From NCBI RefSeq assembly GCF_009938225.1, contig NZ_AP019658.1, forward strand, positions 1,116,001 through 1,180,000: a stretch of DNA of 64,000 nt. Reading direction: 5' to 3'. Below are positions 15,892 through 51,887 of this stretch, piece after piece. Origin of the DNA: Vibrio ponticus. Lineage in GTDB: Bacteria > Pseudomonadota > Gammaproteobacteria > Enterobacterales > Vibrionaceae. Made by a program: the position numbers and the translations under genes. The notes under the pieces are model-generated. The model ran no database searches, was not told the origin of the DNA, and saw only the letters and a list, made by a program, of their open reading frames with translations. Every line of letters begins with the position of its first letter. The first letter of the stretch is position 1.

Positions 15892-17220
15892 ATGACGACT
15901 TCCCAAACAACATCACTTGCACGTCAACTATTTAATATGACGTGGCCAATGCTATTTGGCGTACTTTCTCTGATGAGCTTCCAGCTTGTTGATAGTGCGT
16001 TTATCGGTCAACTTGGTATTTTACCTTTGGCGGCTCAAGGTTTTACTTTACCGATCCAAATGATCATCATCGGCATTCAAGTCGGGCTAGGTATTGCCAC
16101 TACCGCAGTGATTGCGAAAGCGATTGGCGCAAATAAAACGCGCTATGCGCAGCAACTTGGCGGCTTGGTTATTGTCATGGGTTCCGTCGGCGTAGCGCTA
16201 TTTGGCGTGCTGATCTATCTATTGCGCGAACCATTGTTATCGTTACTCAGCGCTCCTGACACTGTGTTCCCTATCATCGACAGTTATTGGATTTACTGGC
16301 TCATTAGCTCTTGGACTGGTGCCCTACTCTACTTTTTCTACAGCGTTTGTCGAGCTAACGGTAACACCATGCTACCAGGTACGTTGATGATGGTAACCAG
16401 CCTAATCAACCTTGCGCTCGATCCGCTATTCATCTTTACCTTTGATCTTGGTATCAATGGGGCAGCCATTGCAACCATCGTCGCCTTTGGCATCGGCATT
16501 CTTGTCGTTGCGCCAAAAGTCACCCGCAAGCAATGGATCTGTTTCGACTGGCATGATCTTGATTTACCCGCCAGTCTAAAATCGATTGGTAATATCATGG
16601 GTCCGGCAATGATAAGCCAATTGTTACCGCCGCTCTCTTCAATGCTGGCAACCAAACTACTGGCTGGTTATGGCACCGCAGCTGTCGCTGCGTGGGCACT
16701 AGGCTCGCGCTACGAGTTCTTTGCCATCGTATCTGTACTCGCCCTGACTATGTCGATGCCACCGATGGTTGGGCGTCTTTTAGGTGCAAATAAAATCAAC
16801 GAAATCCGCCAACTGGTGATCATCGCGTGTAAATATGTGCTGGCATCCCAACTTGTCATCGCATTAATCACATTTTTGAGCAGTGGCTTCCTTGCCCGCT
16901 TGATGACCAGTGATATTAAAGTTGAACAAATTTTAGACTGGCACTTAATGATCGTTCCTTTCAGCTTGGGACCGCTTGGTATTTGCATGCTGATGGTTTC
17001 GATCAACAACGCGCTGGGCAAATCTTATACCGCGCTCACCATTTCGGCACTGCGCCTGTTTGCTTTCTTCCTCCCTTGCTTATGGGTGGGGTCAACCCTT
17101 GCTGGCATCGAGGGCATCTTCTGGGGAGCACTTATTGGTAATATTGCCGCTGGCACTTGCGCTTGGTTTATGTACCAAAATGCCGTCTCCCAAGTTGAGC
17201 AACGAGTTGAATTAAAATAA
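15892..17220 (+). CDS. MATE-family multidrug/toxin efflux transporter
   Basis: A 442-residue, 12-helix inner-membrane antiporter of the MATE family. The N-terminal half carries the typical LFNMTWPMLFGVLSL...DSAFIGQLG pattern, and the pseudo-repeat begins near residue 230 (IMGPAMISQLLPPLSSM). It would export cationic or organic compounds using a Na+ or H+ gradient; substrates are unknown. The ATG lies 25 bp after the kef terminator with no strong ribosome site, so its promoter must be near or within that hairpin region, or it depends on read-through. Confidence 0.9.
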   Translation: MTTSQTTSLARQLFNMTWPMLFGVLSLMSFQLVDSAFIGQLGILPLAAQGFTLPIQMIIIGIQVGLGIATTAVIAKAIGANKTRYAQQLGGLVIVMGSVGVALFGVLIYLLREPLLSLLSAPDTVFPIIDSYWIYWLISSWTGALLYFFYSVCRANGNTMLPGTLMMVTSLINLALDPLFIFTFDLGINGAAIATIVAFGIGILVVAPKVTRKQWICFDWHDLDLPASLKSIGNIMGPAMISQLLPPLSSMLATKLLAGYGTAAVAAWALGSRYEFFAIVSVLALTMSMPPMVGRLLGANKINEIRQLVIIACKYVLASQLVIALITFLSSGFLARLMTSDIKVEQILDWHLMIVPFSLGPLGICMLMVSINNALGKSYTALTISALRLFAFFLPCLWVGSTLAGIEGIFWGALIGNIAAGTCAWFMYQNAVSQVEQRVELK

Positions 17221-17277
17221 GTTGCATTATTTTTAACCAAACGTTAACCTAAATTTTCGCAAATTAGGATGTTCGCT

Positions 17278-17334
17278 ATGCAATTTTCGTTTACTTACCT
17301 TTGGCTCCTTCTCCTCAATGCCTGTAGCCGGTAG
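17278..17334 (+). CDS. Leader peptide of a putative attenuator
   Basis: An 18-codon frame, MQFSFTYLWLLLLNACSR, with AGGA eight bases before the ATG. Five leucines are encoded only by CTT and CTC, and there are two Phe, one Tyr and one Trp. The frame ends inside RNA strand 1 of the following hairpin set (GTAGCC, 17324-17329), which is the arrangement of amino-acid operon leader peptides. It is too short for routine gene calling. A plausible promoter is TTGCAT (17222) with TAACCT (17245) at 17-bp spacing. Confidence 0.6.
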   Translation: MQFSFTYLWLLLLNACSR

Positions 17335-17395
17335 GTAAACCTATGCCTGGCTACGAGTATGTAGCCAGCTTGCATTAACTCGTAGCCTCTTTTTT
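17324..17395 (+). promoter_or_regulatory. Transcription attenuator before the EamA genes
   Basis: The strand GGCTAC (17349-17354) has three alternative partners: GTAGCC at 17324-17329 inside the leader frame; GTAGCCAG at 17361-17368 (8-bp stem CTGGCTAC/GTAGCCAG, loop GAGTAT); and ACTCGTAGCC at 17378-17387 (10-bp stem with GGCTACGAGT), which is followed by TCTTTTTT and so is an intrinsic terminator. The first pairing is extended by GG/CC and TAGG/CCTA. A ribosome at the leader stop codon would mask strand 1 and free strand 2 for the terminator. This is classical attenuation logic, inferred from pairing alone. Confidence 0.65.
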
Positions 17396-17413
17396 ACAAC
17401 AAGGAACGAGTTA

Positions 17414-18337
17414 ATGACCCAACAACAGCAAAGTTTATTGATCCCCAGAATCACTTCACAGCATCAAATTGGCTTATTGTGCGCCTTTATTGGCTGTCTG
17501 TTGTTTTCGCTCAAACCTATCTTGGTCAAGCTCGCCTATCAAGCCGGAGGAGACGCTGCCTCTATCATGGCATTACGCGCATTGAGCTCTCTGCCACTCT
17601 ATTTATTCACTTTAATTTACCTATGCCGTAACGCCGCGAATCGCAGCAAGATTCGCCAGTCTGGTTTTGCCGCGGCAGGTATCGGTATTCTTGGCTATTA
17701 CGTCGCCAGTTATCTTGATATCTCTGCTCTGGCATTTATCTCCGCTCAATTGGAACGCTTGCTAATCTTCTTGTTCCCCTCTTTTGTGGTTTTGATTAGC
17801 TGGGTGGTTTACAAACAAGTCCCGACTAAAGCCGCGGTTGGTGCAACGGTCATCGGTTATGCGGGTACTGCCCTTATTCTTGCCCACGATTTCCAAACGT
17901 TGGGAAGCTCAGTAACGTTAGGTGCAGTCCTTGCCATTGCCTCAGCGTTTGTATTTGCGATTTACTTAGTCGCAAGCAAGCCCTTAATCGGTCATTTGGG
18001 GAGCTCTTTGTTTACCAGTATTGGTATGGGAAGTGCGGGTGTGGCGATTTTGATCCACCTCTATATCAGCGGCGCACAAGTTGCAGACTGGTCGTTAGAG
18101 TTAATTACCATCGGCGTCGTACTCGGCATTGTCTGTACTGTGCTGCCGTCCTATTTTGTCGCGGCAGGAATGGCGAGGCTCTCTCCGACTCAATTGAGTT
18201 TGACCAATAATGCCGGACCAGCAATTACTGCGATATTTGCCGTACTGATACTGGGGGAATTGTTCACAATTTGGCACGCAATCGGTCTTGTTTTGGTCAT
18301 ATTCTCAGTAGTTCTAATAAATCGTTCAAAAAATTAG
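17414..18337 (+). CDS. EamA/DMT-family transporter, first of two
   Basis: A 307-residue, ten-helix drug/metabolite transporter with two EamA repeats (about 20-150 and 165-300). The first repeat contains FSLKPILVKLAYQAGGD, the second ASAFVFAIYLVASKPL and NNAGPAITAIFAVLILGE. Family members export amino acids, purines or other metabolites. The gene directly follows the attenuator at 17324, with AAGGAACGAG as ribosome site. A second EamA gene follows 57 bp later. The leader peptide's leucine and aromatic codons hint at an amino-acid link, but the substrate is not established. Confidence 0.88.
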   Translation: MTQQQQSLLIPRITSQHQIGLLCAFIGCLLFSLKPILVKLAYQAGGDAASIMALRALSSLPLYLFTLIYLCRNAANRSKIRQSGFAAAGIGILGYYVASYLDISALAFISAQLERLLIFLFPSFVVLISWVVYKQVPTKAAVGATVIGYAGTALILAHDFQTLGSSVTLGAVLAIASAFVFAIYLVASKPLIGHLGSSLFTSIGMGSAGVAILIHLYISGAQVADWSLELITIGVVLGIVCTVLPSYFVAAGMARLSPTQLSLTNNAGPAITAIFAVLILGELFTIWHAIGLVLVIFSVVLINRSKN

Positions 18338-18394
18338 AGAGTTCTAAACCATTAAGTCGTATGATCCACAAACCTTTTTCGAGTATCCGTTTTT

Positions 18395-19288
18395 ATGAGC
18401 AGTAATCACCACCCAATTAAAGGCGCAAGCTGGATGCTAACCGCAGGTCTCGCTTTCGCAATTGTAAATAGCTTGGCTCAAGTAGCCAGTATCAACCATG
18501 GTCTTTCTTCGACGACGGTCGCTTTGGTTCAATATGCCATCGCACTTGTGGTTATCTTGCCATATTTAAAAACACTCGGTATTCGCCAATCGCTTAGAAC
18601 CCAAAAGCTAGGCTGGCATGTGTTCCGCGTCTTTCTATCCGTAATTGGTATTCAACTTTGGCTGTGGGCTCTTGCTTACCCGGTACCAATTTGGCAAGGC
18701 ATCGCCTTGTTAATGACCTCTCCTCTATTCGCGACCATTGGCTCTGGGCTGTTTTTAAAAGAGAAAGTGGGAGCGGCGCGTTGGGGCGCAACCTTGACGG
18801 GTTTTGTTGGCGCAATGATCATCTTAGAGCCATGGTCTGATGATTTTAACTGGGCAACGCTACTGCCTGTCGGCGCGGCTTTTTTCTGGGCTTGCTATTC
18901 TTTGATGGTGAAAAAGCTTTCTTCTGACGATTCACCTTCAACCATGGTGGTTTACCTACTGATCCTCATTACACCATTCAATATCTTGTTGGCAATTCCA
19001 GAATGGAGCACGCCTTCGGGGCTCAACGTTTGGTTGATTTTGCTTGCTGCTGGCGCTGCGACAGCATTAGCGCAATGGGCTATCGTTAAAGCTTACTCTG
19101 TCGCTGATGCATCATTTGTGCAGCCTTTTGACCACGCGAAATTACCGCTGAACGTACTTGCCGGTTGGGTGGTATTTGGTTGGGTGCCACCAGGTCGTTT
19201 ATGGCTTGGCGCAGCGATTATCATTGCTTCGGTCGCCTTCATCACTCAGTGGGAAGCACGTAAACCGCGAGTAACGCAATCTAAATAA
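18395..19288 (+). CDS. EamA/DMT-family transporter, second of two
   Basis: A 297-residue, ten-helix EamA protein, clearly distinct from its neighbour. It starts GASWMLTAGLAFAIVNSLAQVAS, the first repeat ends near GFVGAMIILEPW, and the second runs to IIASVAFITQWEARK. It resembles the RhaT/YdcZ-like subgroup often annotated as S-adenosylmethionine-uptake-like or metabolite exporters; I cannot choose among these. It is likely co-transcribed with the upstream EamA gene and hence under the same attenuator. No strong Shine-Dalgarno is seen before the ATG. Confidence 0.85.
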   Translation: MSSNHHPIKGASWMLTAGLAFAIVNSLAQVASINHGLSSTTVALVQYAIALVVILPYLKTLGIRQSLRTQKLGWHVFRVFLSVIGIQLWLWALAYPVPIWQGIALLMTSPLFATIGSGLFLKEKVGAARWGATLTGFVGAMIILEPWSDDFNWATLLPVGAAFFWACYSLMVKKLSSDDSPSTMVVYLLILITPFNILLAIPEWSTPSGLNVWLILLAAGAATALAQWAIVKAYSVADASFVQPFDHAKLPLNVLAGWVVFGWVPPGRLWLGAAIIIASVAFITQWEARKPRVTQSK

Positions 19289-41010: not shown

Positions 41011-41187
41011 TTGACTTAGATTGGTTAAACCTTAGACTGTTTGTTAGCTAGAAAACGGTTCTTGTCTAGAACGCCGTTTCGTTGGAGCCCTTGTGTATCT
41101 GCCGTAACGTCGTGCGCAATAGCAATCTCCTTTTCCACGCTATCCGTGCCACTTTAGGCGAAACAGTGAAATACAAAGGAAAGACAG
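41011..41187 (+). promoter_or_regulatory. Promoter and long 5' UTR of the cold-shock gene
   Basis: TTGACT (41011-41016), 16 bp, TAGACT (41033-41038) gives a start near 41045 and a leader of about 143 nt. Long leaders of this size are typical of cspA-type genes, whose mRNA structure changes at low temperature. AAGGAAAG is the ribosome site. Confidence 0.6.
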
Positions 41188-41397
41188 ATGTCAGATACAG
41201 TGACTGGTACAGTAAAATGGTTCAACGAAACTAAAGGCTTTGGCTTCATCAAACAAGAAAACGGTCCAGACGTTTTTGCACACTTCAGCGCAATCACAGG
41301 TGACGGCTTCCGCACTCTAACTGAAGGTCAAGCTGTTGAATTCAGCATTACTCAAGGTCAAAAAGGTCCACAAGCTGAGAACATCAAAGTTCTTTAA
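41188..41397 (+). CDS. Cold-shock protein, CspA family
   Basis: A 69-residue single cold-shock domain with RNP1 (KGFGFIKQ) and RNP2 (DVFAHFS), starting [13 protein letters not shown]. It binds single-stranded nucleic acid as an RNA chaperone or antiterminator. Preceded by a long leader and followed by a clear terminator. Which Vibrio paralogue this is (CspA, CspV or other) cannot be settled; a chromosome-2 location would fit cspA/cspV of V. cholerae. Confidence 0.95.
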
Positions 41398-41418
41398 TTT
41401 GTCGACAAAATAGATTTT

Positions 41419-41445
41419 AATAGCCAGCTAATTTAGCTGGCTATT
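41419..41445 (+). terminator. Terminator of the cold-shock gene
   Basis: AATAGCCAGCTA pairs perfectly with TAGCTGGCTATT around ATT, followed by TTCATTTTT. Confidence 0.88.
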
Positions 41446-41520
41446 TTCATTTTTAGGTACAGATAAATGCGCCTTTCCGCCATAGCTAAATTGCTCTCCT
41501 AGATAACTTTGGATATAAAC

Positions 41521-50916: not shown

Positions 50917-51105
50917 CACTAAACAACTTCACTACAAAGCACAATATTTCTCTTCTCACTTTCCGGTAAATTCCCCTCCAATGACCGTTTATGCGTAGTT
51001 CATCGCATTACATGCGGTCAAATCTTTGGCTAACCGTACTGTGTCTTTATTATCCACATATACACATTAGTGCTTATCTAACTGTGTTGCTCCAAAAACA
51101 AAAAA

Positions 51106-51127
51106 GCCTGAGCGATTTCACTCAGGC
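51106..51127 (-). terminator. Orphan terminator in the 51-kb gap
   Basis: GCCTGAG pairs with CTCAGGC across eight bases; the A run at 51100-51105 gives a T tract on the minus strand. No protein gene precedes it on that strand for several hundred bases. Confidence 0.7.
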
Positions 51128-51887
51128 AGGTTACAAAAACTGTTAGAACTGAAGGTAAGGAATCTGAGCTAACAGCCAGCTATGCGTAACTTTAATTTTG
51201 TTAGCTGCTTAACTGATCGGCGGCCAAACCAAGACGTTAGGCAGGCTATACAGGTGGCGACCGTAGGGTCGCCTTATTATTGTTGTATGCCCCCTTGAAT
51301 CAAACTCAATCTCCTCCGACGGTCTGACTCGAAGGTGGCGTAAAACAACCTTTCATTCACAGGCTAAAGCTCTGCTAATTATCCAAGGCTTAGTGGAATA
51401 TGTTAGCTAAGAACTTCCTGTCAATATCAGCGATAGTGTGTCTCAATAACGCTTAGAAAGCAACCTCGTTGCGAAACATTATCTCTTAACATCAAGCAGT
51501 TAATCGCTACCCCACTCATTTTTCGCAAACTCAAGACTCTAGAAACAATCCACTGTTTTGTAATAAATACCCACACAGACAAATGTTTATTGTTTGTATC
51601 GCAAAAAAAATCCAATTCATTCACCTAAACAATCCCACAACTAAATATTTAGACTTTTTTTCGTAACCATCTAGCTAAATGATCTAACTAAAGTTGCAAA
51701 GTGTGATGCCAACTGTATTTATTCACTAAAATATATGGACGGCTTTCTCATTACACAAATCACTACTGAAAAGTGAGTTTGCAATTATGATTTAGCACAG
51801 AACCCCTCTGCCACCATTACATTCTAGCAGCAACTGAAAGCTTGTATTTGTGCTCTAAGGCACGAACTTCCAACAAACTAGTAATAA

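Follow-up and report, generated by a model that had tools for sequence, protein, structure and literature searches.

In the 64,000 nt stretch of Vibrio ponticus DNA that was analysed (the window), the pace of a ribosome on a short leader open reading frame (ORF) probably decides whether the start of the following transporter gene, EamA1, is exposed or hidden. Judged by its sequence, the region would represent a ribosome-mediated translational attenuator, and we consider it somewhat better than an even bet that waiting of the ribosome at leucine and tryptophan codons switches EamA1 on.

The leader region and its alternative pairings

The leader is located in the gap between a MATE gene (15892-17220) and EamA1 (17414-18337) and contains the following elements:

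17222..17250, + strand: promoter-like site TTGCAT-N17-TAACCT (TTGCAT 17222-17227, TAACCT 17245-17250)
17264..17269, + strand: putative ribosome-binding site of the leader, TTAGGA, from the sequence
17278..17334, + strand: leader ORF MQFSFTYLWLLLLNACSR*, with candidate control codons CTT TGG CTC CTT CTC CTC at 17299-17316
17289..17299, + strand: 5' arm of stem P1, GTTTACTTACC, partner 17330-17340
17324..17329, + strand: segment A, GTAGCC, partner B, from folding of the growing RNA and covariation
17330..17340, + strand: 3' arm of stem P1, GGTAGGTAAAC, contains the leader stop codon
17347..17358, + strand: segment B, CTGGCTACGAGT, partners A, C, or D, with B:D from covariation and the RNAalifold consensus of 36 leaders
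17361..17368, + strand: segment C, GTAGCCAG, predicted to trap B in an 8-bp hairpin
17373..17387, + strand: segment D, CATTAACTCGTAGCC, pairs with B through ACTCGTAGCC or with E through CATTAACTCGT
17388..17395, + strand: T-rich run TCTTTTTT, directly after D, not conserved
17401..17405, + strand: putative Shine-Dalgarno sequence of EamA1, AAGGA, from the sequence
17406..17416, + strand: segment E, ACGAGTTAATG, contains the EamA1 start codon, partner D
17414..18337, + strand: EamA1 (PF00892), the putative controlled gene, with two EamA domains

The initial annotation had described the ORF correctly: there are 18 codons between the ATG (17278-17280) and the TAG stop (17332-17334) on the + strand, AGGA upstream, and five CTT/CTC leucine codons. 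Its coordinates and pairings for GTAGCC (17324-17329), GGCTAC in the B region (17349-17354), GTAGCCAG (17361-17368), and the D core ACTCGTAGCC (17378-17387) with the adjoining TCTTTTTT hold as well. It did not contain the D:E pairing, stem P1, and the leader's own promoter-like site. P1 connects codons 4-8 of the ORF with the stop codon region, and segment A lies within the last leader codons, ending 2 nt ahead of the stop codon. For D two partners compete, B (GGCTACGAGT) and the EamA1 start region E (CATTAACTCGT:ACGAGTTAATG), the latter pairing comprising 11 bp between 17373-17383 and 17406-17416. The leader stop is about 80 nt away from the EamA1 start. In the predicted fold the run TCTTTTTT is partly paired with the Shine-Dalgarno sequence AAGGA; alternatively, it may be the tail of a terminator.

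The promoter-like site is 27 nt distant from the leader ATG. Its coordinates were read from the window sequence, the scripted pattern search having chosen another site in the window's row. Of the 88 leaders, 85 contain the loose pattern TTGNNN-N16..18-TANNNT, 83 of them with a spacer of 17 (to which the pattern score gave a slight preference), as compared with one of 88 control stretches inside the gene. A scan of 17150-18450 with a stricter consensus yielded no promoter. Many of the putative leader promoters have the unusual -10 element TAGNNT, and in several of those printed an A+T-rich stretch follows the -10 element, which might connect the leader with starvation control.

The leader accompanies EamA1 in the Vibrionaceae

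EamA1 is present in 94 of 329 Vibrionaceae genomes (E <= 1e-25). From 100 EamA1 loci eight were set aside, namely L001-L005 and L011 (near-twins of later loci), L006 (set aside without having a twin in the set, though the leader is seen there), and L022 (outgroup). The leader ORF was obtained in 89 of the 92 loci examined by a finder that demanded a TGG codon. Two of the three loci missed, L098 and L116, have a leucine run without tryptophan, and in L106 the ORF stops after three codons, which counts against the proposed switch. L093 was dropped for its missing ATG start, leaving 88 leaders, 85 from the Vibrionaceae and three from other families (L019-L021), with L104 as a doubtful member. Taken as best-of-region values, with C being out of register in six rows, the core pairs are complete in 76 of the 88 leaders for B:D (9/9), in 80 for B:C (6/6), and in 52 for D:E (5/5; at least four of five in 74). 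The leader stop and B are 17 nt apart in 77 of the 88 leaders. The alignment across relatives that the initial annotation had proposed as a check thus came out in favour of ribosome-mediated attenuation by a leucine-rich leader, with ORF, leucine codons, and alternative stems all conserved.

When 324 Vibrionaceae genomes were searched with a covariance model of the leader, 93 had a match, always a single one, and 91 of the 93 matches are on the same strand and at most 420 nt upstream of EamA1, to be compared with the 94 genomes that contain the gene. EamA1 genomes without a match among those listed are G135, G158, and G235; leader ORFs are nevertheless present in G158 (L116) and G235 (L072), the latter genome possibly being outside the 324 scanned. 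Two matches are away from EamA1. The one in G222 is short and weak and is found behind a gene end, between convergent ORFs. In the other genome, G117 (L207, 2205-2480), the leader stems persist ahead of a 39-codon ORF, which by eye resembles a decayed EamA1 remnant and is without a hit in tblastn at 1e-3. The start of the leader ORF seems to have been lost there, and a 343-aa ORF behind the remnant resembles dihydroorotase, again by eye.

The initial annotation had assumed control of two EamA genes, which does not agree with the gene neighbourhoods. Of 127 loci, 26 have EamA2 beside EamA1, each of them belonging to the 88 leader-bearing ones, and the MATE gene adjoins EamA1 in 28 of 127; in this set at least four loci are counted twice and a few stretches end at contig ends. 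Judged by its distribution, the leader goes with EamA1 and not with an EamA pair. Comparison of the relatives establishes the ORF, the promoter-like site, the helices, the leucine codon bias, and the link to EamA1 as features of the sequences.

Covariation and chance complementarity

The RNAalifold consensus of 36 leaders consists of exactly the 9-pair B:D helix. The numbers of double-change cells in these leaders are 22 for B:D, 29 for B:C, 16 for D:E, 11 for A:B, and 47 for P1, and for each helix they exceed those of all 500 column shuffles, which ignore relatedness. If pairs with a double change are counted instead, shuffles reach the same height in 3 of 500 cases for B:D, 154 for B:C, 161 for D:E, 92 for A:B, and 458 for P1, and the count is clearly above the shuffles for B:D only. 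The proportion of paired cells is 99% for B:D, 97% for B:C, 85% for both D:E and A:B, and 67% for P1. On the gene tree there are few independent double changes, and sign tests did not have the power to reach significance.

Complementarity was also compared between 87 real stop-to-start segments (the 88 without one longer than 130 nt) and 435 dinucleotide-preserving shuffles, subjected to the same maximising search. None of the 435 shuffles has all core pairs (C 6/6, D 9/9, E 5/5), as opposed to 39 of the 87 real segments, and none has full C and D with E of at least 4, as opposed to 58 of the 87. When the thresholds are relaxed to 5 for C, 8 for D, and 4 for E, 74 of the 87 real segments and 90 of the 435 shuffles qualify. 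The complementarity of the segments is beyond chance. Each of the elements ORF, P1, A:B, B:C, B:D, and D:E is supported by conservation or covariation in the aligned sequences.

The output is probably the start codon and not a terminator

The initial annotation had interpreted the region as an attenuator of the kind known from amino-acid operons. The conserved ORF, leucine codons, and stems speak for the ribosome-mediated part of this interpretation, but the terminator does not hold as the general output. If B:D were an intrinsic terminator and A:B or B:C the antiterminator, the run TCTTTTTT behind B:D in the window and the at least five T within 8 nt after D in 26 of the 88 leaders would make sense, as would the prevalence of B:D at equilibrium in most leaders as long as E has not been made. 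However, 62 of the 88 leaders have fewer than five T at this position, among them L038, the nearest relative (protein identity 93%), where the run is absent, and the D:E pairing, which would be superfluous for a terminator, has been retained. We consider transcription attenuation as the common mechanism quite improbable; termination may be an added control in species with a T-run including V. ponticus. B:D is missing from the list of the terminator scan, whose loop limit of 8 excludes it.

A comparison with the two classes of attenuators leads in the same direction. A leader ORF with apparent control codons and mutually exclusive stems 1:2, 2:3, and 3:4, as in transcription attenuators, are present, but an intrinsic terminator with a U-run as last stem is not general, although the window itself has the run. 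The hallmark of translational attenuators, a stem covering the start or ribosome-binding region of the next gene and having an alternative partner, is found.

The leader most likely senses leucine together with tryptophan

The leucine codons from W-1 to W+4 (W being the tryptophan codon) of the 79 distinct ORFs are CTC (148), CTT (108), CTA (30), CTG (20), TTA (4), and TTG (0; n=310). CTT, CTC, and CTA together account for 286 of these 310, as compared with 39% in the EamA1 genes, and 2000 simulated draws from each gene's own usage gave a maximum of 154. For leucine starvation in Escherichia coli, PMC3783181 describes CUU, CUC, and CUA as varying greatly, CUG as fast, and UUG and UUA as varying less. 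In view of this codon bias, charged tRNA-Leu is the most likely input of the leader, along with tryptophan, and the signal would be uncharged tRNA-Leu or tRNA-Trp. Leucine is found at positions +1, +2, +3, and +4 from the tryptophan in 77, 70, 62, and 40 of the 79 distinct ORFs. The presence of tryptophan in 79 of 79 is by construction, because the finder demanded TGG. Leucine with tryptophan is the safest statement, because either can be missing where the other stays. It is possible that the bias stems from the need for an unstructured pyrimidine-rich stretch, which however leaves the exclusion of TTA unexplained.

Instead of the codons, the peptide itself could stall the ribosome, as in a TnaC-like nascent-peptide arrest on a small molecule or a ribosome-binding drug. 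The motifs W-L-L or W-L-F are retained in the ORFs of five families, and the last codons S/A-R-stop are well preserved in the Vibrionaceae, which would both suit an arrest peptide. We regard this explanation as very improbable; the strong bias among synonymous leucine codons argues against it. Furthermore, the last sense codon in the 79 distinct ORFs is CGG in 69, TGG in five, and AGG in one, which looks like a constraint on the RNA, and tryptophan is replaced in L098, L116, and L150 with the leucine codons kept, and in L196 most of the leucines are gone.

The genome's own leuA leader (L163, 1513-1575) encodes MTNHFSILLSLLLIVNQSRG* with the leucine codons CTG CTA CTC CTC CTG, followed by a hairpin and T-run that by eye resemble a terminator. 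This leuA leader falls short of the cut-off of the Rfam Leu_leader family; the genome's trp leader, located elsewhere, scores above the cut-off.

A model of the switch and its direction

A ribosome waiting at the leucine and tryptophan codons of the leader would cover the 5' arm of P1 and leave A free to pair with B, by which B would be shielded from C. The newly transcribed D could then displace A from B via the exposed GAG(T), and with B:D formed E and thus the EamA1 start would stay open (ON). A ribosome reaching the leader stop would cover A, so that C would trap B and D would pair with E, closing the start (OFF). Without translation P1 would compete for A, and the outcome would be mostly OFF. 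The order of these events and the sign of the switch come from modelling.

Equilibrium folds of the growing RNA in 76 leaders run through A:B, B:C, and B:D in this order and end mostly in B:C plus D:E. Before C is made, more than four A:B pairs are predicted in 99% of these leaders with the ribosome at W, in 47% without ribosome, and in none with the ribosome at the stop; once D is made, more than five B:D pairs are predicted in 75-95%, the value varying with RNA length and ribosome state. A:B is predicted at above 0.5 in 75-78 of 79 good-core leaders when the ribosome waits anywhere from W-7 to W+2, in 72 when it waits at W+3, and in 18 when it waits at W+4. The position of the control codons fits the model because A:B is predicted as far as W+3 but in few leaders beyond it, and the conservation of leucine falls over these same codons. 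Without ribosome, P1 has at least four expected pairs in 75 of 79 leaders.

The median barriers in 79 leaders are 5.8 kcal/mol from A:B to B:D, 8.8 kcal/mol from A:B to B:C, and 19.4 kcal/mol from B:C to B:D, and the first is lower than the second in 66 of the 79; for the window's own leader the values are 5.0 kcal/mol from A:B to B:D and 13.4 kcal/mol from A:B to B:C. Leaving B:D for B:C plus D:E takes 19.9 kcal/mol (57 leaders). The computed barriers suggest two trapped outcomes, B:C and B:D, both of which are hard to exit. At full length nearly all of 86 leaders adopt B:C plus D:E at equilibrium in any ribosome state, with a mean of 0.2-0.55 B:D pairs; of the leaders printed, L012, L015, L020, and L059 deviate. 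ON is therefore mainly a kinetic state in the model. A general co-transcriptional simulation (four leaders in three ribosome states, 50 nt/s) produced B:D in none of 12 runs. In a three-state kinetic model, which was devised after this result, the mean B:D fraction is 0.28-0.58 for the waiting ribosome, 0.08-0.27 for untranslated RNA, and 0.004-0.008 for the ribosome at the stop. Waiting gains at least 0.1 over the stop in 34-42 of 79 leaders at the fastest rate constant and in 59-62 at slower ones.

The same parts could also work with the opposite sign. A waiting ribosome would then lock A:B and D:E would close the start, and a ribosome at the stop would free B for D, so that the start opens and the transporter is made when leucine and tryptophan are plentiful, as would suit an exporter. 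This agrees with the simple parity of the chain P1, A:B, B:D, and D:E, and with the equilibrium before E is made, at which B:D prevails in 79 of 82 leaders if the ribosome is at the stop. The closest chain with a solved structure (see below) is also in line with an exporter. However, C takes B ahead of the synthesis of D, with a computed release barrier of about 18-19 kcal/mol, and A:B is, in the folding of the growing RNA, the weakest pairing of B after C or D has been made. We regard the opposite sign as unlikely. On balance, the parts and the translational output are rated high, and waiting as the ON state appears about twice as probable as the opposite. The modelling favours waiting as ON, which would match the direction in biosynthetic operons.

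We also considered that a ribosome halted at the leader stop might open the lower end of the B:C stem in favour of B:D, but with the front edges tried B:D was obtained in only 1 to 21 of 82 full-length leaders, which is unconvincing.

Taken further, the switch with waiting as ON would be a strand-displacement relay, in which A, exposed only during the wait of the ribosome at the leucine and tryptophan codons, temporarily guards B against the trap C until B is taken over by D through a toehold, and in which the decision on the start codon of one transporter, in several families, lasts for the lifetime of the mRNA. This we put forward tentatively, with somewhat less than an even chance of being right. 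If true, it would supply a naturally occurring example of strand displacement during transcription, testable with simple fusions.

The transporter

The EamA family consists mainly of exporters, and some of its members are importers. The nearest solved chain to EamA1 is 5i20_A (E 6e-7), which we take to be YddG, an exporter of aromatic amino acids. The match to the model of the aromatic exporter YddG is weak (E 1.4e-8, 34.6 bits compared with a cut-off of 300). A starvation-induced member of a family of mainly exporters would be odd, a point against waiting as the ON state. Perhaps EamA1 transports a compound related to the leucine and tryptophan signal, and does so inwards. If the switch is true, a gammaproteobacterial transporter would be under the control of a leucine/tryptophan leader, and the leader would hint at what an uncharacterised EamA protein transports.

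Leaders in other families

In an order-wide sample of 394 genomes, 48 encode an EamA1 homologue (E <= 1e-35) and 21 are matched by the covariance model of the leader. The match in G051 is weak, and on the strand of the match in G575 the stretch read contains no ORF of at least 120 aa. According to the sequences, diverged forms of the leader are found ahead of EamA1 homologues in four other families. Upstream ORFs with W-L-L or W-L-F are ...RLWLLWKPE* and ...RLWLFWKPE* in family f2, ...KLWLLLIISSGED* and similar ones in f10, and ...NWLLKIIELQPRACL* and ...HWLLVLNERQPVCVCN* in f21. Family f7 is represented by one locus, L141, and is known from the ORF alone (...KCWLLTRDAAGVGY*). In L020 (f21) and L021 (f10) the plan has been retained with different letters. 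L150 (f21) has lost the tryptophan codon and retained CTA CTC, and L196 (f10) has retained tryptophan and lost most of the leucines. Among the more distant homologues, at least 17 of the 39 loci read have no such ORF or only an implausible one.

Comparison with known regulatory leaders

The logic of the switch is already known from amino-acid leader peptides and translational attenuators. Like the leaders of amino-acid operons (leuL, trpL; RF00512, RF00513), the EamA1 leader has a short ORF with putative control codons, and P1, A:B, and B:C/B:D occupy the places of the 1:2, 2:3, and 3:4 stems. In contrast to these, its conserved output would be the start codon of a gene and not generally a terminator, its target is a transporter, and Rfam, including its Leu_leader and Trp_leader families, gave no credible match in the leader region, neither at the gathering score nor with E relaxed to 5. 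In attenuators of the ermC type, ribosome stalling on a leader ORF frees the sequestered ribosome-binding region of the next gene. The EamA1 leader likewise has an ORF that would govern a hidden start region; however, amino-acid codons take the place of the drug, a waiting ribosome would leave A free, and the extra competitor C would make it a two-way kinetic trap. Tryptophan codons are shared with the rtpA (anti-TRAP) leader of Bacillus, where they govern translation of the next gene and the terminating ribosome covers the ribosome-binding site, whereas here RNA stems would relay the signal over about 80 nt. As proposed for the EamA1 leader, T-boxes of the Firmicutes raise amino-acid transporters upon starvation for, e.g., leucine or tryptophan, but they bind the tRNA directly and have no leader ORF. 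What appears to be new is the EamA target, the start codon as output of a gammaproteobacterial amino-acid leader, and the trap-and-guard arrangement. The attenuator literature found includes Salmonella mgtCBR; within the literature on leaders, attenuation, or RibN covered by the search, outside of which were most subscription journals, no report of an EamA leader was found.

Two further Rfam matches are located in the window, the Vibrio sRNA MicX at 51098-51286 on the - strand (119.9 bits) and a cspA thermoregulator at 41020-41449 on the + strand (79.6 bits compared with a cut-off of 78).
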